DNA of 64,000 nucleotides, taken from contig NZ_JACBFP010000002.1 in NCBI RefSeq assembly GCF_021401085.1, positions 434,001-498,000 of the forward strand, written 5' to 3'. Positions 19,948 through 43,362 of this stretch are shown here, piece after piece (positions within the stretch are counted from its first letter, which is position 1; each line of letters opens with the position of its first letter). A program made the position numbers and the translations under genes. The notes beneath the pieces are model-generated. The model had not been told where the DNA came from, made no database searches, and saw only the letters and a program-made list of their open reading frames with translations. The stretch comes from Chryseobacterium sp. R2A-55 (GTDB lineage Bacteria > Bacteroidota > Bacteroidia > Flavobacteriales > Weeksellaceae).

Positions 19948-19975
19948 GGTTTAAAATAAGAAATTAAGCAAAAAA

Positions 19976-20026
19976 AATAACCAACTGAAAATCAATTGAT
20001 TATTTTTATTAAAGTGGAGCAGGAGG
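19976..20026 (-). repeat. Left attachment site: displaced ssrA 3' end and terminator
   Basis: GTGGAGCAGGAGG at 20014-20026 is identical to 42965-42977, the last bases of ssrA. Exactly 9 bases to its left ends a hairpin (19976-20004) that on the minus strand reads AATAATCAATTGA / TCAGTTGGTTATT, fully paired with two G·U. The intact ssrA has a hairpin terminator at the same 9-base distance (42927-42955), and both copies are joined to the core by TTATTTTTA plus five variable bases. This is what remains at the far end when an element inserts in the 3' end of a gene and brings its own replacement end. Confidence 0.82.
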
Positions 20027-20186: not shown

Positions 20187-20819
20187 TTACTTCAAGTTAT
20201 TGCCGAAGATGAACAAAAACATTTCCAGATTTACTGGACTAACCTTAAGCTGATTCGAAGTTCGGTGCATTGTCTTTAGATAATCTAAGTAATATTTCAG
20301 CGCATTATGCCTGGATAGGTTTTGAAGGTTTTCAAATTCTTCAAAGACCTTTGCCTGAAAAACCCGCAATATTCTTTCATCAAGAATCAACGCATCATAA
20401 TCTCCAAATTTCCAAGTCCTGAAATAAAGCAATTTTGAAATTGTTGATATTCCTAATCCTGGGAAATCACTTAGTTTCTGAAGAACATCTTCCAGTTCAT
20501 TTTCAATGACCAAACCTCTTCGTGGTAAATTGATTATTTCTGAAAGCTCATTAATGTTTTCGAAAATTGCAGTATCATTGGAATGACCACGCATTCCTCT
20601 TGGATAACCCCACATAATCACCAAATAAACAAAAAGGTCAATGGGACACTTTGAAAAAATATCGTTTCTGGAAATTTTCCTTTCTGGTAAACCCACAAAA
20701 ATCTCATCAAGAATTTTTGTATCAATTTTCTTTTCCCAGGTGATGCGTTTTGTTACAAATGCCTGTTCTTGAACGGGCATTTCATTAATCAAGCCTTTGT
20801 AAGAAGATAAAGTTTTCAT
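20187..20819 (-). CDS. 8-oxoguanine DNA glycosylase-fold (OGG-like HhH) protein
   Basis: A 210-residue protein. Residues 115-150 contain a helix-hairpin-helix-like segment LSDFPGLGISTISKLLYF followed by YDALILDERI. This resembles the Bacteroidota family annotated as OGG-fold proteins. Lys129 in SKLLYF and Asp147 in LILDER are 18 residues apart, close to the spacing of the catalytic Lys and Asp in OGG1, so they may be a glycosylase/lyase pair; that is inference. The first four bases overlap the stop of the preceding gene (ATGA), so it is the last gene of the leftward restriction operon. It could excise modified bases or act on restricted DNA. Confidence 0.6.
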   Translation of the reverse strand: MKTLSSYKGLINEMPVQEQAFVTKRITWEKKIDTKILDEIFVGLPERKISRNDIFSKCPIDLFVYLVIMWGYPRGMRGHSNDTAIFENINELSEIINLPRRGLVIENELEDVLQKLSDFPGLGISTISKLLYFRTWKFGDYDALILDERILRVFQAKVFEEFENLQNLSRHNALKYYLDYLKTMHRTSNQLKVSPVNLEMFLFIFGNNLK

Positions 20820-24100: not shown

Positions 24101-24137
24101 CTACTTCGAGAGCTTTTTCGTTGGTTTGGGATTTCAT
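21117..24137 (-). CDS. hsdR: Type I restriction endonuclease subunit R
   Basis: HsdR is the motor and nuclease of a type I restriction enzyme: it translocates unmodified DNA and cuts it. The protein has 1006 residues, a normal length. The N-terminal PD-(D/E)XK nuclease core is seen at Asp157 and Glu171-Leu-Lys173 (EEIDMVIFLNGIPIITIELK). Helicase motifs follow: Walker A SAGSGKS with Lys324, and DEVH at 433-436. Later motifs are FGFTATP and VVANKYLTGFDQPKL...LQTLSRLNR (shown as VQTLSRLNR). The C-terminal helical part would bind HsdM/HsdS. It follows the PIN-like gene by 7 bases. Confidence 0.95.
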   Translation of the reverse strand: MKSQTNEKALEVAIEKALAGCSTEDIKNGIVAESQSPYGGNGFYIGSPDDYNAKFAVDEHRFWNFLEETQAEELEKLKRQSDWKLKILDRLDKMIKKYGVLKILRKGLDVDDAHFTLFYVYPLQNSSKSVKENFEKNQFNVTRQLRYSESNPLEEIDMVIFLNGIPIITIELKNHWTGQNARVHGINQYMYKRDIAQPLLNFGRCIVHFAVDTDEAYMTTKLAGGNTFFLPFNLGNNFGKGNPPNPFGHKTSYLWQEVLTRQSIANIIQHFVRFDGTDKDALTKKTLYFPRYHQLDVVRKLIADTEKNGVGKRYLIQHSAGSGKSNSITWLAYQLIEAYPENALSAGTRSLDDPLFDSVIVVTDRRLLDKQLRDNIKEFSEVKNIVAPAYNSKDLQTALETGKRIIITTIQKFPFIVDGIADMSNKQFAVLIDEVHSGNSGTAADNLNRALGANEDQDAEDWEDKINEAMKSRKMTPNASYFGFTATPKNTTLEKFGEQQEDGSFKPFHLYSMKQAIEEGFILDVLANYTTYKSYYELTKSIEENPLFDTAKAQKKLKAYVEKHQQTINTKAEIMLEHFLDTVYKPKKLKGKAKAMVVTQSIESAIRYYKALQNLLNQRGNPFKIAIAFSGEKSVDGIKYTEAQMNGFSEAETREKFDEDEYRILVVANKYLTGFDQPKLTAMYVDKKLQGVLAVQTLSRLNRSANKLGKKTEDLFVLDFFNSTEDIKTSFDPFYTSTTLSGATDVNVLHEIKDSLDGTGIYEQFEVDDFNQKYFNGVDAQQLSPIIDVAAQRFNVEFELEDKEKADIKIKAKQFVKIYGQVASILPFEIIGWEKLFWFLKFLIPKLIVKTGVEGLDELLESVDLSTYGLERSKLNTTIQLDDSETEVDPQKATVRGAYGDENKDPLEEIIKNFNEKWFQGWEATPEEQRVKFLTLSKSVQAHPDFKVKVAENHDAQNRELALKKILDEVMAQQRKQELELYKLYAQDTSFYQAFLNTMKQVINVR

Positions 24138-24144
24138 TTAATTA

Positions 24145-24714
24145 TTAGTTTATTTCGATAACTAACTCATTTTGCAACTCTAAAAATTCTTGAATATTAA
24201 GTGTTCTAATATTTAGGAAATCGCATATCGCTGGAATTTTTTTGAAATATTTCCTATCATTCGCTCTATTTGTTTCTTCAGTAATCAAAACTGCTTCAAT
24301 ATCTGCATTTTTAAAATTATGACACTTTACAATCATCTTAATATCAGCAGAATTAAGAAATAACTTTTTCTCAACTTCATATTCAGCTGAAGACAAACGA
24401 TTAGTTAATGCTCTTACTGCAAAACTATTGTCAACCATTCTATAAAACCTTTCATGTGCAAACGGAATTAAATCTTCAGTCTTTTCTCCTACTTGATTCT
24501 TTTTACAAAATTCTTTATCATTCAAGAAATCCAATCTTTGCACGACTAATTTTTGAGAGACAAATCTCGCCTCCTCTAAGACTTTATCAATGACTAAAAT
24601 CTCCCCATTTTCAATTTTCTTTTTTAGGAATTCGTAAAGTTTATTTTTCTTGTCATTGGGTAGGTAATATCTGGCTAATGACAACAGAGAACTACAATCA
24701 ATTACTGCTATCAT
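24145..24714 (-). CDS. PIN-like (DUF4411-type) protein, possible toxin
   Basis: A 189-residue protein starting, by my choice, at the ATG at 24714, which directly precedes the first beta strand (MIAVIDCSSLLSLARYY) and has AAAGG 9 bases upstream. An earlier ATG at 24729 adds five residues. Acidic residues fit a PIN nuclease: Asp in VIDCSS, Glu-Glu in VLEEAR, Asp in SADIKMIVKCHNF, and LITEE. This pattern resembles DUF4411 PIN proteins, which often accompany ImmA/IrrE-XRE proteins. It overlaps the protease gene by 17 bases, which supports a coupled pair. RNase activity is inferred. Confidence 0.65.
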   Translation of the reverse strand: MIAVIDCSSLLSLARYYLPNDKKNKLYEFLKKKIENGEILVIDKVLEEARFVSQKLVVQRLDFLNDKEFCKKNQVGEKTEDLIPFAHERFYRMVDNSFAVRALTNRLSSAEYEVEKKLFLNSADIKMIVKCHNFKNADIEAVLITEETNRANDRKYFKKIPAICDFLNIRTLNIQEFLELQNELVIEIN

Positions 24715-25864
24715 AGATATACCTTTCAAAATTTTCCGATTTAATATTTAATTTCTGGCAAAATTCATATTCTGAAATCGCTCCTTCAAAATATGCTTTT
24801 TGATAAGTGGAGATTACTAATGGGGACTTTATGGGAACAGCTGGTTGTGCAAAAGTTTTTACACCCATCTCCTTGTCAAGCTCTCGTTTCTTTTTCTCTT
24901 CTTCTCTTTTAGCTTCAAACTCTTCTTGAAGATTTTTTTTGAATTTTTGATAATAAGCTGGACTTATTTTCTCATTAATCAGCAACCTCGTCATCAAAGC
25001 AGTTCTGCTGAGATGAGTTTTAGAAGACACTTCTGTAATCAAGTCATGATGATAATCATTTTTGGGACTGGCAAATTCTACATTCGAAATCATCTTATCA
25101 TACTCTGCAACAAGAAAATAATACGCAAATTCATTACACCATCTTTCAATTTTGTTGATAGGTGCTTGCATCGAGTTATAATTTACCTCTTCTGCAACTT
25201 CTTCATCTAATAAGTAATGTCCTAATTCATGAATTAGGGTAAAAATTTCTCTTCTGAAAAACCGTTGATTTCTTTTGAGTACAATGTTATTGGGTTTTAT
25301 ATAAAAACCATCAATGTTTGATTTCTCAATTTTAGCATGGTGCTCCACATATTCAAAAACTATTATATTGGCATAACCTAAAACCCGTATCAATTCTACA
25401 AGAAATTCCTTAGGCTGAACTTTGAATATTGGATTTAGCTTTTCCCTGATTTCTTTCCCTGCTTGTTTTGGAGAACTTGTTACGGAATAATTTGGAAGTA
25501 CTCTTTCAAACTTTACATCAGATAATTTTGCAAGAGCCGACAATGACAGGCTTGTTTCTTCAAACTGATTTACTATCTGCTTTGCACCTAAGTTTAATTC
25601 CCCACCTAATTCTGTTTTTCTAAAAAATATACTTGCTTCCTTATTCTTTTCAGGTGTGCTTGGGTCAAGGTAATATTGGATGCCTTTGTTAAAGATTTTA
25701 TCAATTTTCTTAAGATGAGAAATTTTTATTTCTTCTGTCCAAATCTGGTCTTTCGTAATGGGATTTTTTAAATCGCCACTAATTATAGACAATAATTCTT
25801 CTTCTGACATCTGATAAAGAGCCAGCAAAAAATTAATTCTTCCTATGTTATGGTGTACCTTCAA
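24698..25864 (-). CDS. ImmA/IrrE-family metallopeptidase, possible antitoxin of the PIN protein
   Basis: A 388-residue protein. Residues 209-218 carry the zinc-protease motif TLIHELGHYL (His212, Glu213, His216), followed by a downstream cluster KIERWCNEFAYYFLVA that supplies the third ligand in this family. The N-terminal part (EEELLSIISG...) is helical and may contain an XRE-like DNA-binding region, as in COG2856-type proteins. A Lys/Glu-rich helix lies near residues 310-335. With the overlapping PIN-like gene it forms a toxin-antitoxin-like module nested between hsdS and hsdR. Family members cleave repressors (ImmA) or act as antitoxins; which applies here is unknown. Confidence 0.75.
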   Translation of the reverse strand: MKVHHNIGRINFLLALYQMSEEELLSIISGDLKNPITKDQIWTEEIKISHLKKIDKIFNKGIQYYLDPSTPEKNKEASIFFRKTELGGELNLGAKQIVNQFEETSLSLSALAKLSDVKFERVLPNYSVTSSPKQAGKEIREKLNPIFKVQPKEFLVELIRVLGYANIIVFEYVEHHAKIEKSNIDGFYIKPNNIVLKRNQRFFRREIFTLIHELGHYLLDEEVAEEVNYNSMQAPINKIERWCNEFAYYFLVAEYDKMISNVEFASPKNDYHHDLITEVSSKTHLSRTALMTRLLINEKISPAYYQKFKKNLQEEFEAKREEEKKKRELDKEMGVKTFAQPAVPIKSPLVISTYQKAYFEGAISEYEFCQKLNIKSENFERYIYDSSN

Positions 25865-25918
25865 GAAAATATTTAAGTTTTATTGTAGCAAAATTAATTA
25901 AATAAAAAATGACTTTGG

Positions 25919-27247
25919 TTAGGTTACCCTCACTTTCCCCGTTACCACATTATCTATTAGTACGGTTTTGTACTCCTTAAGCTTTTCTATTTCCTGCTGC
26001 TTTATTGAAATTATTTTAAAATACTTTTCATTAATATTCTTTAATCTATCAACAATTCCTGTTAGATATTTTTTGTCAATTGGAACAGGAATTACAAAAC
26101 CTAAAATTTTGGATTCTGAAATAGTAGGTATTGTTGAACCAATTACGTTTTTTTCAATTTGAGTTTTAAAACAATTAGATTTTAATGACTCATATAAAAA
26201 ATCAACATTTAGTTTTATATTTTTTAAAACAAGTAATTGTGGGTTAATTGTTGCCTTTTGGGGTAGGCTTTTAACCATTCCAATCTTGCCATATGTAGAA
26301 CCTGTTTTCACAATTAGTATGTCATTCTCTCTTATTTTAATTTCAGGTGATTCATTATATTTTTCCCAAGATAGAAAAGAATTCTTTTCAAATTCCATAT
26401 CATTCTCTTTAATATTTGATGGACTAATTGTAATAGCTCCTTCACCTTCATCAACTAAATCTGATGTAGTATATCCTCGAAAACCAATTCTACCATAAGC
26501 TTCACAAAATGACTTCAACTTACTTAGTTTCCAATCTTCAGGAATCTCTCCAATCCAATCTACACCAGAGTCTTTGGTTTTGGTAGGTTTTGTCCATTGG
26601 TTGCCGTCCCAGATTTTTTTGCCAGTTACGAGTTCCTGTATCAGAATTTGCCGTCTTTCTTTCAGCAACTCTATTTCCTTTTCTTTGATGGCAATGGCTT
26701 GGTCTATCTTGGCAGTTTTTTCATCTAGAAATTCGGCTATGGCTTGTTGTTCTTCAGGTGGAGGAATAAAGAAAGGTATTTCTTTCATTCTACTTTTTGA
26801 CAAATCCCACTGACCAATTCGTACTCCATCAGAAGCCGAACCAAAATGTGCAACATAAAATTTGCTTCTTATCGCTTTATGAAAATAATTTGGTACTATC
26901 TGTGAATTTAAATCAAAAATATAATAAGCTGGACTAACAATCCCATCATAGTTTGAAACACCATATGAACCTTGCCAAGCCTTCATTTTATTCATTCCAA
27001 ACTGACCTTTCTTCAAAAATTTATAGCCAGACAAATCGTCAGGAATAAAATTATGGTTTTCAGAATCATCTTCTAAGTCTCTTAGGATGACACCTTTTTC
27101 TCTCGTTATTGATAACAAAGGTTTATCTGGCTGATTTTTAATTGAAATATCTTCTAAGATTGCGCCTAATCTCTTGACGTTCCAATGCTCGGGAATTTCA
27201 CCCAACCATTTTACACCACTGTCTTTATAGCTGTCGTATTTTTTCAT
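25919..27247 (-). CDS. hsdS: Type I restriction specificity subunit S
   Basis: HsdS gives the type I enzyme its two-part DNA target. The 442-residue protein has the standard duplicated plan. Target-recognition domain 1 begins at DSGVKWLGEIPEHWNVKRL; a conserved coiled-coil follows (PPEEQQAIAEFLDEKTAKIDQAIAIKEKEIELLKERRQILIQELVTGK). Target-recognition domain 2 begins at DSGVDWIGEIPEDWKLSKL, and a final coiled-coil ends QEIEKLKEYKTVLIDNVVTGKVRVT. It starts one base after hsdM ends. The two recognition domains differ, so the target is probably asymmetric and cannot be read from the sequence. Confidence 0.95.
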   Translation of the reverse strand: MKKYDSYKDSGVKWLGEIPEHWNVKRLGAILEDISIKNQPDKPLLSITREKGVILRDLEDDSENHNFIPDDLSGYKFLKKGQFGMNKMKAWQGSYGVSNYDGIVSPAYYIFDLNSQIVPNYFHKAIRSKFYVAHFGSASDGVRIGQWDLSKSRMKEIPFFIPPPEEQQAIAEFLDEKTAKIDQAIAIKEKEIELLKERRQILIQELVTGKKIWDGNQWTKPTKTKDSGVDWIGEIPEDWKLSKLKSFCEAYGRIGFRGYTTSDLVDEGEGAITISPSNIKENDMEFEKNSFLSWEKYNESPEIKIRENDILIVKTGSTYGKIGMVKSLPQKATINPQLLVLKNIKLNVDFLYESLKSNCFKTQIEKNVIGSTIPTISESKILGFVIPVPIDKKYLTGIVDRLKNINEKYFKIISIKQQEIEKLKEYKTVLIDNVVTGKVRVT

Positions 27248-27248
27248 T

Positions 27249-29597
27249 TTAAAAATTTAAAATTTCAGCTAAAAGCCCATCTCCTTCTTTCTCCAAAGCC
27301 AATATATCTTCCGTAACCTCATCTAAAGTTCTTAATGGTGCAGGTTCATAGAAATATTTGTTAAAGCTTAATTCATACCCAATTTTTACAGTGTCCAAAG
27401 CAATCCAACTTTCCTCAGCATACGGTTTTACTTCTCTTAAGAAATAATCCTGGATGTTTTCTTTCAGTGGGATGCTCTCGCTGTCCCTTAAATCTGCTTC
27501 GGTTTCATAAATGGTATATTCTCCAGCTTTGTCTGTTGGAAAATAACCATAATAAGATAAATCTTCTTCCTTACAGCTCAGGTATTCTAAAAGTTCTGCA
27601 AGCTTTTTGTCATTCAGTTTCTCAACTTTTTTTACCACTTTGTCTGCCTCTTCATCATACCAGCTTACAGCATCCAGAATCTGTTTCTTTTCCGTGGCTG
27701 AAAGCTTGGTTTTATCCTGCTTTAATACCTCATCAACCTTGTCTGAGAAGAGATTGAAATTGGTATAGGTTTCTGTTCCCAAAACTTCCGTTAATCTGTT
27801 AGCAGTCTGGTACAACATTTCCTGCTTTTCCCAAGTTTCTTTTTTCAGGAATGAAGCCAACTGTTTCGGATTGAGACCAAGGTCGTTTTTCTCTACATAA
27901 TCAGCAATTTCTTTCTTATGTTTTTCAAGTCCTTGGTATACTTCTAATCCATACTTTTCAAAGAGAACTTTACTGAAATCGGGATTGCTTTTTTCCCATT
28001 TCAGACTCTCAATTTTTTCAGTAGTGAATTGTGCTTTCAGCCGTTTCGGTCTCTCAATATTGACTTTGAAATAACCGAAATCATCATTGTCAAAAACTTT
28101 ACTAGCAAGATTTCCCGTTTCTTTTTTGTCTAATTTTTTAAGTTCAACATAGCAGTCTAGGATTTCCTTGATGTGCTGTTTGGTGAGTTCACAGTTTTTG
28201 TTACCTAGATTTTTACGCAGCTTCTGGTACATTTCGCTAGCATCAATCAGCTGCACTTTACCTTTTCTTTTCTGAGATTTTTTATTAGATAAAATCCAGA
28301 TATAGGTTGTAATTCCTGTGTTATAAAAGATATTATTAGGAAGCTGGATAATGGCTTCCAACAAATCGTTTTCTATAATATATCTTCTTATGTTGCTCTC
28401 ACCGCCACCTGCATCTCCTGTAAACAGGCTGGAGCCATTATGTACCGAGGCAATTCTGCTTCCCATTGGGCTTTGCGATAGAGGTTTCATTTTATCTACC
28501 ATATCCATTAGGAAAAGCAATTGGCCGTCACTGCTGCGAGGAACTGCATCGGCATCCTCTTCTTCACCCCAGTAGTTTTTGAGTTTGATTTGGAAGCGGG
28601 GGTCTATAATATCTTTTCCATCTTTGATGTACTTCTGCTCAGAGGCCCAGGACTTTCCATACGGTGGATTGGATAACATAAAATCGAAGGTAGTGCCAGC
28701 AAAGTCGTCTGTTGATAAGGTAGAGCCTACTTTGATGTGTTCAGGATTTTTCCCCTTAATCATCATATCCGATTTACAGATAGCATAGGTTTCGTCATTT
28801 ACCTCCTTGCCGAAGAGATAAATGTCTGTATTGGTGGCTTTAATCTCCCCCTCGGGGTCGATGATAAAATTTTCAGACTCCGTAAGCATGCCGCCCGAGC
28901 CACTTGCCCCATCGTAGATAGTCAAGACTGAAGGAATATTATTTTTTATAGGTTCAAAGATTATGTGGGTCATTAGGTCGATAACTTCACGTGGTGTATA
29001 ATGCTCTCCAGCTTCTTCATTATTCTCTTCATTGAACTTTCTTATAAGCTCCTCAAAAACATATCCCATCCCCAAGTTGGTCAGTGCAGGTAATTTTCTT
29101 CCTTGGGAATCCAGTTTTTCGAAAGGAGTTAGATTAATGTCTGGTGAAGTAAACTTCTCTAAAACATCAAGCAGAACATCCTTATCTGCCATATGCTTAA
29201 TCTGCCTTCTAAGCTGAAATTTCCCAATAATCTCCTGCACATTGGCACTGAAACCGTTCAGGTAATCCTGAAAGTTACCCAGCAATATCTGTTGACTGTT
29301 TGTCGCAGTGGCATAAAGCTTTTGGAGAGTCCATTCACTTGTATTGTAAAATACAAATCCTGAAGCTGCTGACATACCTTTTTCGTCCCATTCGGTGAAT
29401 TTCATCACCTCTTTCTGGAACTTCACTTCTTCCAGTACGGCATCTTTTGTAGGTTCCAATAGTGCGTCCAGTCTTCTAAGCACTACCATAGGGAGAATTA
29501 CATCTCTGTATTTTCCTCTTACATATACATCTCTTAAACAGTCATCAGCAATTCCCCAGATAAAGGAAACCAGTTTATTATGAATGGCGTGGTTCAT
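27249..29597 (-). CDS. hsdM: Type I DNA methyltransferase subunit M
   Basis: HsdM is the N6-adenine methyltransferase that protects host DNA and joins HsdS and HsdR. I place the start at the ATG at 29597 (MNHAIHNKLVSFIWGIADDCLRDVY), giving 782 residues; a start 48 bases upstream has no family support. The AdoMet-binding motif DGASGSGGMLTE is at about 229-240 and the catalytic NPPYGKSW at 310-317. A long C-terminal extension ends in a coiled helix (TLDEVTEDILALEKEGDGLLAEILNF). It is the first gene of the leftward operon hsdM-hsdS-protease-PIN-hsdR-unknown-OGG. Confidence 0.95.
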   Translation of the reverse strand: MNHAIHNKLVSFIWGIADDCLRDVYVRGKYRDVILPMVVLRRLDALLEPTKDAVLEEVKFQKEVMKFTEWDEKGMSAASGFVFYNTSEWTLQKLYATATNSQQILLGNFQDYLNGFSANVQEIIGKFQLRRQIKHMADKDVLLDVLEKFTSPDINLTPFEKLDSQGRKLPALTNLGMGYVFEELIRKFNEENNEEAGEHYTPREVIDLMTHIIFEPIKNNIPSVLTIYDGASGSGGMLTESENFIIDPEGEIKATNTDIYLFGKEVNDETYAICKSDMMIKGKNPEHIKVGSTLSTDDFAGTTFDFMLSNPPYGKSWASEQKYIKDGKDIIDPRFQIKLKNYWGEEEDADAVPRSSDGQLLFLMDMVDKMKPLSQSPMGSRIASVHNGSSLFTGDAGGGESNIRRYIIENDLLEAIIQLPNNIFYNTGITTYIWILSNKKSQKRKGKVQLIDASEMYQKLRKNLGNKNCELTKQHIKEILDCYVELKKLDKKETGNLASKVFDNDDFGYFKVNIERPKRLKAQFTTEKIESLKWEKSNPDFSKVLFEKYGLEVYQGLEKHKKEIADYVEKNDLGLNPKQLASFLKKETWEKQEMLYQTANRLTEVLGTETYTNFNLFSDKVDEVLKQDKTKLSATEKKQILDAVSWYDEEADKVVKKVEKLNDKKLAELLEYLSCKEEDLSYYGYFPTDKAGEYTIYETEADLRDSESIPLKENIQDYFLREVKPYAEESWIALDTVKIGYELSFNKYFYEPAPLRTLDEVTEDILALEKEGDGLLAEILNF

Positions 29598-29673
29598 TAA
29601 CAATATTTTAACGTGAAAAATACTGATTTTTAAAGAAATGAACAAATAGCATATTTTTTTTCGGGCTATAAAA

Positions 29674-30104: not shown

Positions 30105-31442
30105 ATGACAGTAAAATTTTATCTAAAAAACCCTAAAGAGGGTAAGAACACGATTCTGGTTAGAGTTCGTGAAGGAAGAAGGTTGGATATTACATCCAGT
30201 ACTTCTGAGAATGTTAATCTACAAGATTGGGATTCTAAGAGCGGTGCCTGCTTAACTGTTATTGAAGAATTCAAAAATGGCAAGCTAGTTCAAAGCCGTG
30301 ATTCAAAGGCAAAAGAAAGGCTGGTTGCAAATTCAAAAATAAATCGTGAACTTGAGAAAATCCGTGAGTCTATTGAGGAGGCTTATAAAAAATCTGATAA
30401 GTTAAATCTGAATAAAATCTGGCTTCAACAGATTATTTTTCCAGAAAGATTTGCTGTTGAAGAGGAGGAGAAGCCTTATACCCTTATGAACGCTGCAAGC
30501 GACTATCTTTCGTTCAAAGAGGAGGAATTTAGAAAAGGTAAGGTTAAAGAAGCTATTATAAAAAAGAGCAAATCACTTATGAAAATCCTTGAGCGATTAT
30601 TTGAAAGTGAGGGTATTGAGCCACCTTTGGTAACTGAAGTAGATGCAAGTTTTTATAGAACGTTTGATAACTATTGCACTTTTACTGAGGAATATTTGCC
30701 AAGTTATACTGGGAGGAATTTCAAACTTATTAAAACTATGGTCTTTCATGCAGCTGCTAATGGTCACCCCTACAATGCTGGGTTAAGACACATAAAAATA
30801 AAGGTGGAACGTAGAAAATTTCCAACATTATCTTTTGAGGAATTGGAGCTTATAGAAAAGCATGGATATGACAACGATTATTTGGTTAACGCAAGAGATT
30901 GGTTAATTATAGGAGCTTTTTGTGGGCAAAGAGCATCAGACCTTTTGAGGTTTAGTACGTCAATGATTGAGGAAGAGATAATTGAGGGTGTAAAAACCTA
31001 CTTTATCTGTTTTCAACAGGAGAAGACAGGAAAAATCTTGCGTCTTGCTCTTCATCATAAAATCGTAGCAATTCTGGAGAAGAGAAACTGGAATTTTCCA
31101 CGGCAGATATCAGACCAGAGGTTTAACGAATACATCAAAGAAGTGGTTAAGTTAGCTGGAATCAATGAGATGTGTGAAGGTGGAATATCCTCAGCAGGCA
31201 AAAATGGAAGAGTAAGAAAAAGATATGGGATGTATCCGAAACATATGCTTATAACTTCCCACTGTTGCCGAAGAAGTTTCTGTACAAACTTTTACGGCTT
31301 AATTGAGACTTCAACATTAATGGTAGCTTCAGGGCATTCAACCGAAAAGCAGTTCAGGGAATATATTCAAGATGTAGACAGAAAACAAGCAGAAACATTT
31401 GCGAAAGCAATTAATACAGTAACAACTTTAAAAATAGCATAA
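30105..31442 (+). CDS. Tyrosine-type site-specific recombinase (integrase)
   Basis: This 445-residue protein is the likely integrase of the island, expected to join the element to the ssrA 3' end. An N-terminal arm-binding domain (TVKFYLKNPKEGKNTILVRVREGRRLDI...) is followed by a SAM-like core-binding domain (about 120-235) and the catalytic domain. Catalytic residues are Arg276 (GQRASDLL), His386-Cys-Cys-Arg389, His411 (ASGHS) and the nucleophile Tyr420 (FREYIQ). All are present, so it should be active. It is the first gene of the rightward operon; the HTH gene starts 3 bases after its stop. Confidence 0.93.
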   Translation: MTVKFYLKNPKEGKNTILVRVREGRRLDITSSTSENVNLQDWDSKSGACLTVIEEFKNGKLVQSRDSKAKERLVANSKINRELEKIRESIEEAYKKSDKLNLNKIWLQQIIFPERFAVEEEEKPYTLMNAASDYLSFKEEEFRKGKVKEAIIKKSKSLMKILERLFESEGIEPPLVTEVDASFYRTFDNYCTFTEEYLPSYTGRNFKLIKTMVFHAAANGHPYNAGLRHIKIKVERRKFPTLSFEELELIEKHGYDNDYLVNARDWLIIGAFCGQRASDLLRFSTSMIEEEIIEGVKTYFICFQQEKTGKILRLALHHKIVAILEKRNWNFPRQISDQRFNEYIKEVVKLAGINEMCEGGISSAGKNGRVRKRYGMYPKHMLITSHCCRRSFCTNFYGLIETSTLMVASGHSTEKQFREYIQDVDRKQAETFAKAINTVTTLKIA

Positions 31443-32698: not shown

Positions 32699-33940
32699 AT
32701 GTTAAAAATTTACGACAACGTATTCAGCAAAAATTCAACTTCAGAATTTAAAAATCCAGAAGAAGTAATCAATTTTATCAGAGGTGATAGACCAGACTTG
32801 GCAAAAATCAAACAATTAAGAACTCTTGAAAAGGGAACTGAGGATTCAAATAGAATAAAGACCTCGTTACCTGCAATTCTCTGGAATTTTGATTCCTCAG
32901 GATGCAGAAGGAAAGAGTGCCTTACCGAATCTACTGGATTAATATATTTTGATGTTGACAGAAAAAACGGTACAGAAGTTAACTACGAATTCAATAAAGA
33001 TTACTTCTATGCTTATTGGAAGAGTGTTACTGGAACAGGATATGGTTCCTTGGTTAGAGTTTCAGGAGTAACTACAGAAAACTTTGATGAGGCATATAAG
33101 ATTATTGCCGATACATTACACATTCCCTATGATGAGTCAGCAGATAGAAAAACACAGTTAAACATTCTTTCTTATGACCCAGATATCTTTTTTAACCCAA
33201 ACAGCGAGGTAATTGACTTTTCATACCTACAAAATGAAATCAACCCAGAGGCAGAAATTGAGAAAAACACGCAACCCATAGAAGAAAATGTTTTTTTTAT
33301 GAATAGTGAAAGGGTTACCACTTTTTCTAAATTGAGATATGACAACTTCGATGAAAAATCTGAAAATATCAACTTACAGTTTGATGAAAATGGCTTGTGT
33401 GATTTGGGTGAAAACAGAATTCATTATACGCAAGTCTACGTTCCTAAAGTTATTAATCAAGGGAATAGACACGCAACGCTTCAACGAATAGCTATCCAAC
33501 TGATAACTTTAAATCCTCATGTTAATCTGAACCAACTATCGAGTTTGATTTGGACTATTAACAAGGAAAAATGCTATCCTTCCAAGCTGCTCTCTGAAAC
33601 TGATAATTTATGTAAATCCTGTCTAAATGGTAGGGATAACTATAAATTATTTCCAAACAAGACACGAAGGTTTTTCTTTGAAGACCCTTCACTTCCAAGA
33701 GAAACCAAAATTAGCATGATTACAACTTACAGAAATAGACAGACTGGACTGATTAATCAAAATAATGTTTTGATAAAGATGCAGGAATTAGTAGGAAAAG
33801 GTGAAAAGTTTAAGTTAAAGGTTCTATTGAAGCTTACTGGGATTAAAACTACTAAAACACTCGTAAAACACCTGAAAGCAATAAAGAGTCACTTTCAACC
33901 TACAGAATGGAATTTACTATTAACCAATGCCAAGATTTAG
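32699..33940 (+). CDS. Primase-like protein with BT4734/VirE N-terminal-type domain
   Basis: A 413-residue protein. Residues 60-145 (LPAILWNFDSSGCRR..., LIYFDVDRKNG, YWKSVTGTGYGSLVRVSGVT...FDEAYKIIADTL, DRKTQLNILSYDPDIFFNP) match my recollection of the BT4734-like/VirE-N domain, a primase-related fold common in Bacteroidota mobile elements. The usual C-terminal helicase partner is not present here. The middle contains a possible metal site CKSCLNGRDNYKLFP. It probably takes part in replication of the excised element. The next gene overlaps its end by 34 bases. Confidence 0.65.
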   Translation: MLKIYDNVFSKNSTSEFKNPEEVINFIRGDRPDLAKIKQLRTLEKGTEDSNRIKTSLPAILWNFDSSGCRRKECLTESTGLIYFDVDRKNGTEVNYEFNKDYFYAYWKSVTGTGYGSLVRVSGVTTENFDEAYKIIADTLHIPYDESADRKTQLNILSYDPDIFFNPNSEVIDFSYLQNEINPEAEIEKNTQPIEENVFFMNSERVTTFSKLRYDNFDEKSENINLQFDENGLCDLGENRIHYTQVYVPKVINQGNRHATLQRIAIQLITLNPHVNLNQLSSLIWTINKEKCYPSKLLSETDNLCKSCLNGRDNYKLFPNKTRRFFFEDPSLPRETKISMITTYRNRQTGLINQNNVLIKMQELVGKGEKFKLKVLLKLTGIKTTKTLVKHLKAIKSHFQPTEWNLLLTNAKI

Positions 33941-35671: not shown

Positions 35672-36172
35672 ATGCATATGAAAAAAAAATATTCTTTATT
35701 GATTTTCGCATTATTGGGGAGTTTAATAAAAGCTCAAAATAATGACCTGATCCAAAAATTTCCCAAGTTAGATTTTCAGATTTCTACACCTTGTTCATTG
35801 TACGAAAATACATCTTTCAAGCAGTTGGCAAAAGGTCAGGTAAGTATTGTTGAATCATTGGTTTGTGCTTCTAGCAGAAACGACAGTGCAAATGCAAGCA
35901 TATATAACATTAATATCTATAGGGAATCGGGAGGTGCAAAAGAATTCATATACGATTATGCAGCAAAATTACAAGGTGCTGGTATCAGCTATCAACGAGT
36001 GGTTGTTGATGGGATTCCGATGTTAGAATATACCATAATCCAAAATGGTGTTCGAGCAAAAGCACTTGTGTTTTATCGATATGATAAATCTTACCTGTTA
36101 CAAGTCACTTCAAGGAGTAATTTATCTGAAAAATTTAATCTTATGAAAAAATCATTTAAGAAACTAAATTAA
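35672..36172 (+). CDS. Exported protein of unknown function (possibly PsbP/MOG1-like fold)
   Basis: A 166-residue protein with a signal peptide (MKKKYSLLIFALLGSLIKAQ; ATG at 35672 or 35678). The mature part reads like a single alpha/beta domain: FPKLDFQISTPCSLYENTSF..., SIYNINIYRESGGAKEFIYDYAAKLQGAG, MLEYTIIQNGVRAKALVFYRYDKSYLLQVTSR. This layout is reminiscent of PsbP/MOG1-like small periplasmic proteins, but that is a guess. It is the first gene of the group that leads to the vWA/phosphatase/kinase triad, so it may be the sensor-side partner. Confidence 0.65.
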   Translation: MHMKKKYSLLIFALLGSLIKAQNNDLIQKFPKLDFQISTPCSLYENTSFKQLAKGQVSIVESLVCASSRNDSANASIYNINIYRESGGAKEFIYDYAAKLQGAGISYQRVVVDGIPMLEYTIIQNGVRAKALVFYRYDKSYLLQVTSRSNLSEKFNLMKKSFKKLN

Positions 36173-36200
36173 ACTTTATATAACTAAAAAATTAAACATT

Positions 36201-36380
36201 ATGAAATTATTGGGAATAATTTTTATGGCAATTGGTGCTTTTATTTTACTGATGGTCATTATTGGAATTGCCTCTGGGAATGGCTCGGAAAAACAAATCC
36301 TTAGGTTATTGATTGCGGGTGGCTTTTTGTGTTTTGCTGGAGCTTTAAATTATTTAAGGTACAAAAATAAAGTAAAATGA
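36201..36380 (+). CDS. Small two-helix membrane protein
   Basis: A 59-residue reading frame from ATG at 36201 to TGA at 36380, reading MKLLGIIFMAIGAFILLMVI, then IGIASGNGSEKQ, then a second hydrophobic segment LRLLIAGGFLCFAGALNYL and a basic tail RYKNKVK. Two membrane helices with a short polar loop are predicted. The stop overlaps the next start (ATGA). The spacing (28 bases after the previous gene, 4-base overlap with the next) supports it as a real gene. Confidence 0.7.
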   Translation: MKLLGIIFMAIGAFILLMVIIGIASGNGSEKQILRLLIAGGFLCFAGALNYLRYKNKVK

Positions 36381-37114
36381 AATTTATTATGAAAACAATC
36401 TTGACCTTTTTTATTTCATGTGCAATGTTTTTGGCAAATGCACAGACTTATAACGAACAACCGATTGACCCAGCAGTTGGAATGTCTTCAGGTGGCGTTA
36501 GCGAGCAAGTCAAAATGGCTGATGAGGCACTCAGAAATAACAAAAGCATGGGTATAGGAGAAAAATTAAATAGTAACATGAATAGAATTGAACGTTCTGT
36601 TGAAAATTCTCCGTCATTCAATGAAGTTTACGAATCTCAGAAACCATTAAATATTGTGGAAGAAGCACAAAATCAGCAATCTTCTCCAGCACAAAATACT
36701 CCAAACAAACCACTAACATATTCTGTAGGCGATGGAAATCCTTTCGTCACAGAAATCAACTTAGATGACCATTATGACAGGAAAGCAGATGGTTCTTATA
36801 TTAAGAAGGGTGTTAAGACTGATAATTCTAATACAATAATTTTTGTGTTACTCGCTATTGGTGCTATTTTATTGCTTGTGTTTTTACTCAAAAGGAACTC
36901 CAAACCTACTTCAAATAATACAGTTCGGCGATATCCCGTTGATACACCCGAAAGATATGAGAAATCAAATGAGGTATTTAGCTATGATGGCGGTCACAAT
37001 AAGTACGATAATGCTTCCGTACATCATAAAACCACCGCTGAAATGAATCCGTCTCCAACTAGCCCTACTCGAAGAGAAGGCTTTAATCCATCAAAACTAT
37101 ACGGAAAAAATTAA
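36377..37114 (+). CDS. Exported single-pass membrane protein with GGHN/GKN tail
   Basis: A 245-residue protein. A signal peptide (to about residue 22, FLANAQ; ATG at 36377 or 36389) is followed by an extracytoplasmic, low-complexity Asn/Gln-rich region to about 150. A membrane helix follows (NTIIFVLLAIGAILLLVFLL, about 153-172) and then a basic cytoplasmic tail. The tail contains SYDGGHNKYDNAS and ends GFNPSKLYGKN. Similar motifs recur in the tails of the next two genes, so the three look like diverged tandem paralogues. No known domain. It is 3 bases before the next gene. Confidence 0.68.
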   Translation: MKFIMKTILTFFISCAMFLANAQTYNEQPIDPAVGMSSGGVSEQVKMADEALRNNKSMGIGEKLNSNMNRIERSVENSPSFNEVYESQKPLNIVEEAQNQQSSPAQNTPNKPLTYSVGDGNPFVTEINLDDHYDRKADGSYIKKGVKTDNSNTIIFVLLAIGAILLLVFLLKRNSKPTSNNTVRRYPVDTPERYEKSNEVFSYDGGHNKYDNASVHHKTTAEMNPSPTSPTRREGFNPSKLYGKN

Positions 37115-37117
37115 ATT

Positions 37118-37510
37118 ATGAAAAGTTATAAAACATTAATAAAGGTTGCTCTTACGATTATATCAATGGTTATCAGTGGAGGAATAATTGGTTTAATGAT
37201 GGAAAGTCAAACTTTTGGAAAATTCATAGTTGTGGCTATACAAATGATTATCTTAAAACTAATTTGGTCAAAGTCTAAAGATGAGCCAGTTCTAACATCT
37301 GTTAATCCAGTAATTAAAAAGAAAGAAAATGTCAACAATACTGGAGATATAGTGAATAAAACTGGTGGCACAAACCCTACAATCTATAATGCTGGTCACA
37401 ATTCACAAAATAATCAATCTGCAACATGGCTGAAAAGTGGACAACCAGAAGATACTCATCCCAAAAAATCAAGAGAATTTAACAGTGATAATCCATATTC
37501 AAAGAACTAA
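37118..37510 (+). CDS. Membrane protein with NPYSKN tail
   Basis: A 130-residue protein with two hydrophobic helices (about 8-28 and 33-50: VALTIISMVISGGIIGLMM; FIVVAIQMIILKLIW) and a polar cytoplasmic tail rich in Asn and Gly. The tail has IYNAGHNSQNNQSATWLK and ends SDNPYSKN, comparable to the tails of its neighbours. It lies 3 bases after the previous gene, and its stop overlaps the start of the following broken gene (TAATG). Confidence 0.65.
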   Translation: MKSYKTLIKVALTIISMVISGGIIGLMMESQTFGKFIVVAIQMIILKLIWSKSKDEPVLTSVNPVIKKKENVNNTGDIVNKTGGTNPTIYNAGHNSQNNQSATWLKSGQPEDTHPKKSREFNSDNPYSKN

Positions 37511-37748
37511 TGCTAATACCACCAATCCTATTTTTGATGTTCGTAATCATCGGTAAAATGATTGATAATCATCACGACAAATTGAAAGAAAAAAAAAGAT
37601 TCTGCCAAAAGATTCGCATACAATGGAGGGCAGAATGCTTCCGCAGAGATGGATGAATCTGGAGAGTCATACTCCTTGCGTAGTAATATTCAGCAGAAAT
37701 AAAAACAAAAAAGATTTTCTTAGTACTAACCCATACTCAAAAAATTAA
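37510..37748 (+). pseudogene. Frameshifted third copy of the NPYSKN-tail membrane protein
   Basis: The frame from ATG at 37510 reads MLIPPILFLMFVIIGKMIDNHHDKLKE, a short membrane helix, and reaches a run of nine A at 37589-37597. After a one-base shift the family-like sequence continues (KKDSAKRFAYNGGQNASAEMDES...SLRSNIQQK). A second shift near 37700 gives NKNKKDFLSTNPYSKN with a stop at 37746-37748. The YNGGQN motif and the NPYSKN ending match the two preceding genes. Either the gene is broken, the A run varies (phase-variable or slippage-dependent), or the sequence has an error there. An unshifted product would be only 48 residues. Confidence 0.65.
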
Positions 37749-37751
37749 TAT

Positions 37752-38558
37752 ATGTACAATTTAGACACTCTTCAAATTAGCAGCACCCATCCGTGTTTAA
37801 TCATTTATCTTTTAGACCAAAGTGCTTCAATGGCTGGAAATTTTGGTTATGATACTTCAAAAGCCGTTAAACTCGCAGAATCCGTTAACGAAATTATTTT
37901 CGAAACAGGACTAAAATGTTACAGTTCAGGCGGTGAACTTAAAAATCGCTTTGAACTTTCAATCATTGGATACGGTGCGGAAGCAGGGCTTGTAGAACCT
38001 GGTTGGGAAGGCAATCTTAGAGACCATTGGGTGGTTTCGATAGGAGAGGTATTTCAGAATGCTATAGGTGAACAAAATGATGTCCCCATCTGGATTAGAC
38101 CAAAAGCAGGTATGGATACACCAATGACCAAGGCTTTCGAAAATGCACATCGAATTTGTGAGGCGTGGATAAATTGGGGTAATCATAAGGATTGTCATCC
38201 TCCAATTATCATTAATATATCGGATGGTGTACCAACTGATTCAGAAAATAATGATTCAAAGCTCGTCAATACAGTTAATAATTTAAAAAAATTAGGTACT
38301 AACTACGGGAATGTGAATATTTTCAACATCCATATATCATCAGGCGGAGGTGATAGCATTTTATTTCCAACACACCTTGCAAATTCTAATATACACGCAA
38401 ATCTCTTATTTGAAATTTCAACAAATCTAACTGATAAGATGGTCGCTATCGCAAAAAATAAAAACTATCACACGCAAATAGGTTCAAAAGGATATATCTA
38501 TAATGGTACAGCAAGAAATCTGATGGACTTTTTACAAATAAGCAGTGACCCTGTATAG
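37752..38558 (+). CDS. vWA-domain protein (TerY-like)
   Basis: A 268-residue soluble protein made almost entirely of one von Willebrand A domain. The metal-ion site is intact: Asp22-x-Ser24-x-Ser26 (LLDQSASM), a Thr in GMDTPMTKAF, and Asp in NISDGVPTDS. TerY-type vWA proteins bind metal and act as scaffolds in tellurite/stress systems. Here it is directly followed by a PP2C phosphatase and a protein kinase, the order of a TerY-P-type triad. Its stop overlaps a possible GTG start of the phosphatase gene. No signal peptide, so it is cytoplasmic. Confidence 0.85.
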   Translation: MYNLDTLQISSTHPCLIIYLLDQSASMAGNFGYDTSKAVKLAESVNEIIFETGLKCYSSGGELKNRFELSIIGYGAEAGLVEPGWEGNLRDHWVVSIGEVFQNAIGEQNDVPIWIRPKAGMDTPMTKAFENAHRICEAWINWGNHKDCHPPIIINISDGVPTDSENNDSKLVNTVNNLKKLGTNYGNVNIFNIHISSGGGDSILFPTHLANSNIHANLLFEISTNLTDKMVAIAKNKNYHTQIGSKGYIYNGTARNLMDFLQISSDPV

Positions 38559-38560
38559 TG

Positions 38561-39715
38561 ATGAAAATAAGAGTATTTCAAATCCAAAAAAAGGCTTCAG
38601 AAACTTTTGCGGAAATTCAGGACAAATATCTCATTAATCCTGCTTTAAGAACGGTTGCCCTATGTGATGGTGCAACCCAAGGTTTCAGGTCGGAAATTTG
38701 GGCTGAAATGTTAGTTCAGGCTTTTACAACTTCTCCCAACTTTAAGAAAAACGACCTTATAGAGTTTTTTACCACAAAAGCTGAGGAATTCGATGATATT
38801 AGGTTTGAATTCAATGAAAACTTTGCTGTAAAAGCTATTGAGAAAAAAAAGAGGGAGCTTGGAAGTTTTTCAACCTTTATGGGAGTTCAAATAGATGGGA
38901 TTAAAGTGCAATTTATCTCATCTGGAGATGTATGTTCTTTTGTTGTGAAAAATGGGAAAATTTTTTCTTCTTACCCTTTCACTTCGGTAGAGCAATTAGA
39001 TGCCGACCAAGGATTCTTAGGGACAAAAAAATTAATCAGGAACGAAATTTCTGAAGATACATTTTATGAAAAAAATGTTGAAATACAGCGTGATTGCAAA
39101 TTGTTGCTGGTTACGGATGCAATTGCAAGATACATTCTGAGGACTAAAGATATCGAAATATTGAATGTTCAAAATTTTGCTGATTTTAAAAACTATATTT
39201 TAAATATTTGGGAAGATAGATTGTTGGAGGATGATGACATCTCGTTAATCGAAGTCAGTGAATTTGACAATGCTGATTTTGTAATTGAAGAAATCTTACC
39301 GCCTGAAGATTTCTCTTTTCCAAAAGAAAATCCCGCATCTACAAAAAACTTCAACTTACAATACATGAAAGAAATTAAAGAACTACAAAATCAAATCGAG
39401 TTTCTAAAAAGAAATGTTGATACTTCAGAAAAAAGAATTGACAGAATATCTTCAAAACTGAAATCCCTTGGCTACATTCTATTTTCCATATTAGGGCTTA
39501 TGGCACTCTCGGCAATCATCTTTTTTTGGCAAAGCTTTAACAGCAAAAGATTGGCAGGCGAAGAGGATGCAAAAGTTAAACAAACAAATTTGTTGGAGGT
39601 TCAAGATTCTGAGAAATCAGCATCAATTAAATCCAAAAATAATGTGAAACAAGCGAATAAAAAGAATGATGAAGTTTTAATAGACCTAAAGCAAGAAGAT
39701 TCTGCCAAAAAATAA
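38561..39715 (+). CDS. PP2C-family protein phosphatase with membrane anchor
   Basis: A 384-residue protein from ATG at 38561 (a GTG directly before it would add one residue). The N-terminal 235 residues form a divergent PP2C domain. Candidate metal-binding Asp residues are in ALCDGATQGF (about 36), SSGDVCSF, LLLVTDAIARY and EDDDISLIEV. After it come a coiled-coil (MKEIKELQNQIEFLKRNVDTSEKRIDRISSKLKS), one membrane helix (LGYILFSILGLMALSAIIFFW, about 305-325) and a Lys-rich tail. PP2C enzymes remove phosphate from Ser/Thr; the likely substrate is the kinase next door or its targets. Confidence 0.83.
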   Translation: MKIRVFQIQKKASETFAEIQDKYLINPALRTVALCDGATQGFRSEIWAEMLVQAFTTSPNFKKNDLIEFFTTKAEEFDDIRFEFNENFAVKAIEKKKRELGSFSTFMGVQIDGIKVQFISSGDVCSFVVKNGKIFSSYPFTSVEQLDADQGFLGTKKLIRNEISEDTFYEKNVEIQRDCKLLLVTDAIARYILRTKDIEILNVQNFADFKNYILNIWEDRLLEDDDISLIEVSEFDNADFVIEEILPPEDFSFPKENPASTKNFNLQYMKEIKELQNQIEFLKRNVDTSEKRIDRISSKLKSLGYILFSILGLMALSAIIFFWQSFNSKRLAGEEDAKVKQTNLLEVQDSEKSASIKSKNNVKQANKKNDEVLIDLKQEDSAKK

Positions 39716-39727
39716 ATAGTTGTGTCA

Positions 39728-41287
39728 ATGAATTATCCATTACTTTCTGAATACGAAATAGCAATCAAGAAAAATGGCAGTCAAATCTTAAATCTTGGTG
39801 AAAGATATGAGTTTGTTGCAAATAGAGTTACGCCAATAAAATTCTATAATTTTGGTTCAGGAACTTTTGCGAGCGTTTTCAAAGTAAAAGACATTCGATA
39901 TAATCATTACGCTTTAAGATGTTTTCTTAATGCTGGTGACCCCAAAAGAATTGAAAGAACAAAAAAGATTAGTGAATTTCTTTCTCAGGTCAATGAACCG
40001 TGGTTGTGCAAAAGCCGTGTAATTGAGCGAGGAATCAGAATAAAAGGCCATTATTTTCCAGTAGTTGTGATGGACTGGACTTCGGGAATTTTAATTAATG
40101 AATATGTAACAGATATTTTACATTCAAACAGTAAAATAGATGAACTTATAATCAAAATATTACAACTCAGTCAGTCACTTGAGAAGAAAGGTATTGCACA
40201 TGGAGACATCCAATCTGGAAATTTACTGGTTGAAAAGAATGAAAACAGCATTAATTTGAGACTTGTTGATTACGATGCAATGTTTATTCCCAGTTTGAAA
40301 GGTGAAAAAGCAGTTGAAGTAGGTCATTCATCATTTCAACACAATAGAAGGACGAAAGATGATTTTGACGAAAAGATAGACGGTTTTTCTTTTTGGTTAA
40401 TGGTCACTGCTCTCGAAGCGTTGAAATTCGACAAAACACTTTGGAATAAAGACATGAGCGGTGGATTTAATGATGGTGATAACTTCCTATTTCGGGCAAA
40501 AGACATCGCAACACCTCACGCATCAATTCTAGTTTCGAGACTAAGAAATTTGCGGCAACCATCGGTAGACTATTACTTGGATAAATTGCTTTCAAATACA
40601 TCGTCACCTTCAAGGTCTGAATTGAAACTGTACGGTAATGCTATACAGTTACATAAACCGACTACTGTAACTCTTTCGAAAATTAATGAGACAACTCAAG
40701 TTCGAACCAAAGACGAACAAGCATATTTCACAATTGATGCTGATGTTCCCAATGCGAACGTTTTTTTTAATTCAGTTAGCGGCTTAAAATTAGGAACAAC
40801 GCCCTTGAAACTGTCTTTGGACAATGCTTCAAGACTTATCATAATAGAAAAAAACGGAGTGCAAAAACCGTTTTATCTCAATATTAATGAGAGGAATTAT
40901 TTTATCAAACTAAACCAGCATTCTATAAATGTTCCTTCATCTGCTCGGAGATATCAAGTATTTGGAAATCGGGGGTCAAAAATTGATGTCACATTAAAAG
41001 ATATCGAGGAAATCTACAGGTCGGGCAGAGATTTGAACTCGGTTTTTGTGAATGGCTATATAGAATATGTATCAAATGTGCCTGAGGTGAAAGCTATAAA
41101 GGACAGATACTTCACTAGTAATCCCACTCTAAACGTGAAACAAAATATTGAATATGAAAGTACTTCTACAAAATCTCCTGTTCAAAATACAAAAATAAAG
41201 CAGCAAGATAGCAGTATGTCCATAGTTGGTATAATCATTGTTTTGGCGATTATTGGTCTTCTTATTTTTATAGCGGCAAATTCATGA
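39728..41287 (+). CDS. Protein kinase with C-terminal membrane anchor
   Basis: A 519-residue protein from ATG at 39728; a GTG six bases earlier is possible. Kinase features: glycine loop NFGSGTFASVFKV (about 41-53), YALRCFL where the usual ATP-binding Lys of the VAIK motif appears as Arg, catalytic loop HGDIQSGNLLV, and VDYDAMF in place of DFG. The C-terminal region (about 315-420) looks like beta-rich PEGA-type repeats (YFTIDADVPNANVFFNSVSGLKLGTTPLKLSLD). It ends in a membrane helix (MSIVGIIIVLAIIGLLIFIAA), so it is tail-anchored. It is the last gene of the rightward group and 12 bases after the phosphatase. Confidence 0.83.
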   Translation: MNYPLLSEYEIAIKKNGSQILNLGERYEFVANRVTPIKFYNFGSGTFASVFKVKDIRYNHYALRCFLNAGDPKRIERTKKISEFLSQVNEPWLCKSRVIERGIRIKGHYFPVVVMDWTSGILINEYVTDILHSNSKIDELIIKILQLSQSLEKKGIAHGDIQSGNLLVEKNENSINLRLVDYDAMFIPSLKGEKAVEVGHSSFQHNRRTKDDFDEKIDGFSFWLMVTALEALKFDKTLWNKDMSGGFNDGDNFLFRAKDIATPHASILVSRLRNLRQPSVDYYLDKLLSNTSSPSRSELKLYGNAIQLHKPTTVTLSKINETTQVRTKDEQAYFTIDADVPNANVFFNSVSGLKLGTTPLKLSLDNASRLIIIEKNGVQKPFYLNINERNYFIKLNQHSINVPSSARRYQVFGNRGSKIDVTLKDIEEIYRSGRDLNSVFVNGYIEYVSNVPEVKAIKDRYFTSNPTLNVKQNIEYESTSTKSPVQNTKIKQQDSSMSIVGIIIVLAIIGLLIFIAANS

Positions 41288-41507: not shown

Positions 41508-42146
41508 TTAAAACAATTTATTTTCAAATGATAGGTTGGTTGCAACGACTTCCGCTTCATAATTCGGAAATGAAAAATCCTGCAATGGAATATCGTCTAA
41601 CCATCGATATTGAACCTGTTTGCCAAGCATTATTGGCATCCTGTGCTTAGTGTTGTGGATTTCAGACATAAGTTCATTTGCCTGTGTAGTTACTACGGTT
41701 ACAGTAGGTACTTCTTTTTGGGTTTCAGGGTCTGTCCACAAATTATATATCCCACCAAGAGCAAAAATAGGTTGGTCTTTGATGCCAACTAAATACTGAT
41801 GCTTGATTTTTCCTTTTTCGTCCTGCCATTGCCATTCATGGAAACCGTTCACCAGAATTAAACAACGATTATTTACTGAGTTTTTGTAGCTTTTTAGTTC
41901 TTCAGCAGTTTCAATTCTCGCATTAAGCGTCTTCTTCTGAAAGTCCCTGTTTTTACTCCAAAAAGCAATAAGTCCCCATTCTGCTGGAACAATATGTGAA
42001 GTGTCTCTATCTACGATAATAGGTACTCGGGGTGTAGCAAATCCATTAATCCTGAATTCCCTGTGATAAGGCTCGCCAACATATTGTGCTTCGAAGTATT
42101 CTTCAAGCTCTTGAGCTTCTGATAATAGTGAAATATAGTTACACAT
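41508..42146 (-). CDS. SRAP/YedK-family abasic-site-binding protein
   Basis: SRAP proteins (YedK, human HMCES) form a covalent link with abasic sites in single-stranded DNA through Cys2. The 212-residue protein has all key residues: Cys2 directly after Met, Asn75 in LNARIET, Glu104 in NGFHEW, and His168 in KHRMPIML. SRAP genes are part of SOS-linked cassettes in Bacteroidota mobile elements. Here it is the last gene of a three-gene leftward group with a zinc ribbon and a DnaE-type OB fold, so repair or damage tolerance is the likely context. Confidence 0.92.
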   Translation of the reverse strand: MCNYISLLSEAQELEEYFEAQYVGEPYHREFRINGFATPRVPIIVDRDTSHIVPAEWGLIAFWSKNRDFQKKTLNARIETAEELKSYKNSVNNRCLILVNGFHEWQWQDEKGKIKHQYLVGIKDQPIFALGGIYNLWTDPETQKEVPTVTVVTTQANELMSEIHNTKHRMPIMLGKQVQYRWLDDIPLQDFSFPNYEAEVVATNLSFENKLF

Positions 42147-42908: not shown

Positions 42909-42926
42909 TAAACTCTACTGTAAATA

Positions 42927-42955
42927 AATAACCCATTGATTATCAATGGGTTATT
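42927..42955 (-). terminator. Terminator of ssrA
   Basis: A perfect 14-bp stem (AATAACCCATTGAT / ATCAATGGGTTATT) stands 9 bases beyond the core of the ssrA 3' end and is followed on the minus strand by a T-rich run. It would have been brought in by the island, while a diverged version remains at 19976-20004. Confidence 0.8.
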
Positions 42956-42964
42956 TTTATAGGT

Positions 42965-42977
42965 GTGGAGCAGGAGG
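42965..42977 (-). repeat. Right attachment core within ssrA
   Basis: GTGGAGCAGGAGG, identical to 20014-20026, forms the 3' acceptor end of ssrA. Strand exchange probably occurred in or close to these 13 bases, leaving ssrA intact. Confidence 0.8.
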
Positions 42978-43362
42978 GATTCGAACCCTCGTCCAAACAA
43001 GCAACACATAAGATTTCTACATGCTTATTCCGTTCTTGGTTTTCGTCGCAAAGCAGACAGCGGACAGCCAACTTTGCGCTTATCTTCTGAGGTTTTCGTT
43101 CCCGATTCGAAGACTCTCGGGACTTATTTCCGCATTGCTATACCCCGTGATCAGACGTCGCGAAACAGAACTTCTGCGGGATATCTCGTTTCCTTACTGT
43201 GCTTCAGGAAAAACGCTAATCCTACTATGATTCAGATTAAGCAGCGAGAGCGAACTCTTGGTTGCCAGTTAAAATTTTGTAGCAAGGGATTAAAGAGATC
43301 GCGCCACGGTTCTCTGCATGCTTACTTATCCATTGGTCTTGCTGTCGAAACCAGTCTGCCCC
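42966..43362 (-). ncRNA. ssrA: Transfer-messenger RNA
   Basis: tmRNA rescues stalled ribosomes and adds a degradation tag. The 5' end (at 43362) reads GGGGCAGACTGGTTTCGAC, the hallmark tmRNA start. The 3' end has the T-arm GGGTTCGAATCCC and the acceptor strand CTGCTCC, which pairs fully with GGGGCAG (one G·U). The discriminator A is at 42966 and the next bases are CACC, so the terminal CCA is not encoded in place and must be added. The tag frame is at 43237-43266. Spurious reading frames cross this region on the plus strand. Confidence 0.94.
43237..43266 (-). other. tmRNA tag-encoding frame (GNQEFALAA)
   Basis: GGC AAC CAA GAG TTC GCT CTC GCT GCT TAA encodes Gly-Asn-Gln-Glu-Phe-Ala-Leu-Ala-Ala and a stop. 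The ALAA end is the normal protease-recognition signal. Gly as the resume codon is inferred from other Bacteroidota tags, which begin with Gly. Confidence 0.88.

Follow-up and report, generated by a model that had tools for sequence, protein, structure and literature searches.

TerY-P triads have been published as antiphage systems (PMC7699616, PMC10889362, PMC11090510), and in the papers found the way in which they choose their targets appears unexplained. The locus considered here is at positions 35672–41287 of the window, i.e. the whole 64,000-nucleotide stretch of Chryseobacterium sp. R2A-55 DNA analysed here, where genes for exported and membrane proteins are followed by consecutive genes for a vWA protein, a PP2C phosphatase and a protein kinase. 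The three triad genes (37752–41287, plus strand) overlap or almost abut, and encode a TerY-like vWA adaptor (37752–38558; PADLOC TerY 4.3e-42, MIDAS residues, and tree position), a PP2C phosphatase (38558–39715; PADLOC PP2C 9.1e-25), and a kinase with a PEGA-like domain and a tail-anchor helix (39722–41287; PADLOC STK_OB 9.8e-58, Pfam Pkinase 9.7e-7). The PADLOC matches and the MIDAS residues bear out the description in the earlier note of a vWA protein with an intact metal site beside the two enzymes. In Pfam the kinase was the only triad protein to match, and weakly, and no PDB match was found for the vWA protein.

Catalytic and metal-binding residues of the triad are mostly conserved. The MIDAS of the window vWA protein is intact (DxSxS as DQSAS at residue 22, plus T and D), as it is in all eight vWA proteins checked from the clade described below. 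The metal aspartates of the window PP2C are present (IQDK, DG, TDA, DDIS) and conserved in the clade, with the exception of L007, in which the last motif was unmatched by the search pattern. The window kinase has HGDxxxGN and DYD motifs, and an arginine replaces the beta-3 lysine. Active kinases have lysine at the beta-3 position. All ten kinases checked (window, L005–L011, L060, L043) carry Arg at this position, in the form A-[LIV]-R-x-[FW], which is therefore a family trait, and the same ten keep HGDxxxxN and DYD/DFD. Given this substitution, activity of the window kinase is not assured from its sequence. The STK_OB match is limited to the kinase part (profile positions 1–268 of 562), leaving the OB part unmatched. 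A PEGA domain was detected in the kinases of relatives; the AF2 model of the window kinase had low confidence C-terminal to the catalytic part, and as a whole (pLDDT 63) was too weak for a fold search.

Anchoring of both enzymes by C-terminal membrane helices, as previously proposed, holds in part. Both have a transmembrane (TM) helix, but that of the window PP2C (ca. residues 304–322) is not at the very C-terminus, because about 60 charged residues come after it, and the kinase helix, which forms a tail anchor in the window (residues 501–519 of 521), is found in 4/9 clade members (window, L008, L009, L010). The PP2C helix is present in 9/9.

Five genes precede the triad on the plus strand, and the first two are the exported protein and the 59-residue two-helix protein recognised earlier. 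E1 (35672–36172) has a signal peptide and a PsbP/Mog1-like fold according to AF2 and Foldseek; its model, built from two sequences, had a pLDDT of 75.8, and the best Foldseek hit was a PsbP-fold protein (1.7e-4, probability 1.00), with DcrB and the outer domain of PknH as weaker hits. E1 is homologous to the C-terminal ca. 170 residues of the Sediminibacterium (L008) kinase, past its TM helix (blastp 7e-20), and thus in Sediminibacterium the kinase itself contains the exported domain. A firm tie between E1 and the triad is confined to two loci, the window and L008 (fused); candidate E1 homologues in L007, L011 and L060 were rejected, as the similarity was not significant. E2 (36201–36380) is the 59-aa ORF with two predicted membrane helices, untagged and with no family match, and was not found in the loci of relatives.

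The other three genes were earlier described as encoding tail-bearing membrane proteins. M1 (36377–37114) consists of a signal peptide, an external stretch, one TM helix, and a tail with YDGGHN and an LYGKN end, while M2 (37118–37510) is a two-TM hairpin with a tail containing YNAGHN and an NPYSKN end, and gave a weak PADLOC match to a “2TM effector” (1.9e-4). Both are intact ORFs, and judging by the charge around the last helix their tails are probably cytoplasmic. M3 (37510–37751) comprises one TM helix and a tail with YNGGQN and NPYSKN, but is not intact as assembled, since two frameshifts at A-rich stretches part the TM helix, YNGGQN, and the NPYSKN end. At L010 (ca. 6800–7054, minus strand) the tail gene adjoining the vWA gene has one in-frame stop, and its downstream part ends GREYKSGNPYSK. 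Such broken vWA-adjacent tail genes may reflect decay, an assembly fault, or recoding.

The search for close relatives of the vWA protein (50–66%) led to G017, G033 (two loci), G1090, and four named contigs, of which one is from a Bacteroidetes MAG, two are from Flavobacteriia/Flavobacteriales MAGs, and one is from Sediminibacterium. Nine loci formed one vWA clade with support 100/100, and the clade tests rest on these nine in total. The triad was present in 3/297 genomes sampled in the family and, among those listed, in no other genome of the same genus; further sampling around G1090 gave no additional locus. A phage-borne or plasmid-borne system was considered and rejected, as phages and viral contigs gave no match, and the plasmid triads found were distant cyanobacterial ones.

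Upstream DNA was available for eight clade loci (window, L005, L006, L007, L009, L010, L011, L060), and in all eight, one to three tailed membrane proteins are encoded 5′ of vWA. The expectation that five upstream genes would travel with the triad failed: the tags persist across loci while the genes change. What does extend to other genomes is the linkage of the triad to tagged proteins of changing type, not to the same five genes. Tail carriers differ in architecture: five tail proteins tested, from four loci, were DUF805, and others are signal peptide-TM, hairpin or multi-TM proteins. Upstream of the tail genes, L011 (6659–6991) and L060 (6901–7551) encode exported proteins with a common DGTYVxPxxRT...DNFSTKGNxNPYTG-like stretch.

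These polar C-terminal tails are probably unstructured. The usual form is Y[DNSQA]GGHN, followed after ca. 25–50 residues by an LYxKN/PYxKN or LYN end, and the tail proteins carry Y.GGHN and/or a C-terminal [FY]..(L/P/M)Y end. The GGHN core is missing from L009b and from both tails of L010. The YxGGHN core occurred in 12/451 ORFs of the window and the other loci, all 12 directly upstream of a clade vWA gene, and the C-terminal motif in 13/516 ORFs, all in genes upstream of vWA. Because both regular expressions were written from these same tail proteins, a core motif derived from the window only was tested on the other loci, where it gave 7 matches in 456 ORFs, all upstream of vWA, and 0/449 in the remainder. 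A genome-wide scan of 11 genomes located the Y[DNS]GGHN form of the triad genomes at the triad loci, the other matches in these genomes being YQGGHN, YEGGHN, YGGGHN, or a reverse-frame match within the G033 locus. Chance or low complexity as the origin of the tails was ruled out by the ORF counts and the genome scan. The other match in G000 is a YQGGHN site, which is also found in relatives without the triad. A coding YQGGHN pattern (YEGGHN in G017) recurs away from the triad in G017, G000, G026, G048, G020, G043, G063 and G008, and apparently lies in one conserved gene of the family.

Tail type follows the vWA tree. One vWA subclade, that of the window, L009 and L010, has all the YxK[NSR] ends, and the second has all the [LM]Y[NK] ends. 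Neither end is present on two of the tails, and among those having an end motif there was no exception. In G033, with one locus of each subclade, each vWA gene stands beside its own tail type. Such a pattern would be expected of a cognate tag, but common descent of linked genes would produce part of it as well.

The window locus lies on an island of ca. 23 kb inserted in the 3′ end of the tmRNA gene ssrA (42965–43362, minus strand), with att-like repeats at its ends. The left repeat, with the core GTGGAGCAGGAGG (19971–20026, plus strand), is a 56-nt direct repeat 80% identical to the right one (42922–42977, plus strand), which shares the 3′ end of ssrA. The site is empty in the congener G129, where ca. 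160 bp separate the left flank from the tmRNA gene, and 20.0–42.9 kb is therefore an insertion. A probable tyrosine recombinase of the island is encoded at 30105–31442 (plus strand); its match to Pfam Phage_integrase (E 0.0034) falls short of the curated cut-off. Type I restriction genes are located on the same island (21117–29645), which agrees with the earlier note. Inside the restriction cluster are a DUF4411 gene and an M78-peptidase gene (24145–25864; PADLOC capP 1e-10, RmrA 3.5e-10), and adjoining a mobile-element region is a BT4734-like/VirE-N protein (32699–33940; PADLOC RTasVirE-PriCT2 1.7e-24). An 8-oxoguanine glycosylase-like gene (20187–20819) is near one end of the island; near the other end is a gene that by eye reads as an SOS-associated peptidase (YedK-like; 41508–42146), with no family match above cut-off.

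Two distant triads carry tails of another kind. In L043 (7596–10420) and L064 (8579–10875) the PP2C and the kinase have SI(T/F/M)(D/N)KF-type ends, as does a PLD-like protein of L043 (PADLOC DrmC 2.1e-11), and the vWA proteins are without this end. Here the tag is on the enzymes themselves, and no tagged membrane clients were seen. With the enzymes tagged and the vWA protein not, the latter would be the likely reader of the tails.

A common tag on otherwise unrelated partner proteins suggests that the switch may recognise its partners by this tag. We propose, at about even chances, that the locus encodes a membrane-tethered TerY-P phospho-switch acting on changeable membrane proteins that have a common C-terminal docking tag. 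The tails of the membrane clients would lie in the cytoplasm, where the vWA protein, or some surface of the triad, would bind them and bring the clients to the kinase and the phosphatase; an exported or kinase-fused domain outside the membrane would be the input, and the phosphorylation state set by kinase and PP2C would turn the clients on or off. Less surely, the clients might be membrane effectors kept inactive until a phage attacks or the envelope is damaged, as in other defence systems of the TerY-P kind. The envelope-sensing role suggested in the earlier note is plausible, and a defence role may be argued from the precedent of TerY-P and from the setting on an island. As a tentative generalisation, possible rather than probable, TerY-type vWA proteins would be receptors for short C-terminal tags, with each triad lineage using its own code (YGGHN...LYxKN, YGGHN...LYN, SI.DKF), so that phosphorylation switches could recruit interchangeable effectors, membrane ones in this case, without cross-talk between two systems in a cell. 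A tag common to unrelated partners and varying with the core would give a peptide-sized handle on target choice, and would offer a sequence-based route to hidden effectors of TerY-like systems.

The same data can be read without docking. The tails could be kinase substrates in a TerY-P antiphage system of the ordinary type, with effectors that happen to be membrane proteins; PADLOC matches for all three components, the weak 2TM-effector match of M2, and the precedent of TerY-P defence agree with this, and a tyrosine that is conserved in both tail motifs could be a phosphorylated residue. However, the motifs common to all tails are without Ser or Thr, the conserved GGHN block resembles a binding motif more than a phosphorylation site, and the OB part of the kinase is unmatched (profile 1–268 of 562); we consider this account rather unlikely. 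We also regard it as unlikely that the triad regulates envelope stress or envelope maintenance and not defence, tuning membrane proteins such as DUF805 through an exported sensor. Such a role is favoured by the exported PsbP-like protein, kinase-fused in L008, by the DUF805 clients, and by the flanks of several relatives, which hold housekeeping and not defence genes, but it agrees poorly with the very patchy spread (3/297 family genomes and no other same-genus genome among those listed) and with a mobile island carrying restriction genes.

A polar, probably unstructured C-terminus would also suit a localisation, stability or membrane-insertion signal for general machinery, linked to the triad by co-inheritance only. 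This we consider very improbable, as the Y[DNS]GGHN matches in triad genomes all came from the triad loci, and as tail type tracks vWA subclade even with two systems in one genome.

The proposed membrane-tethered switch with docking tags can be compared to three described systems. With TerY-P (PADLOC PDLC02224/02222/02223; Gao et al. 2020 type) the locus shares the same three adjacent families, with clear profile matches, but here membrane anchoring of the PP2C extends through the whole clade, the kinase has no matched OB part but a PEGA-like domain, joined in some members by a TM helix and a far-side domain, and tag-bearing membrane proteins are encoded upstream. The TerY-P of CoCoNuT Types II and III-A is alike in that vWA, PP2C and kinase form an add-on cassette (PMC11090510); its kinases have a terminal zinc ribbon and are neighbours of CoCoNuT nucleases (PMC11090510), whereas here the partners are membrane proteins, and neither CoCoNuT nuclease genes nor a zinc-ribbon kinase were found among the island proteins scanned. 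In the vWA-MoxR ternary conflict systems partners are recruited to a vWA core via a common terminal module (PMC8195603), as we propose here, but by folded effector-associated domains and with MoxR ATPases (PMC8195603) in place of the short linear tails, kinase and phosphatase seen here. Neither DUF805 in a kinase operon nor tails common to TerY-P partners were met with in the searched literature, which included few subscription papers. The earlier description of the system as undescribed thus applies to a part of it: within the literature searched, the triad itself is already known, and what is new is its tag-bearing membrane variant.
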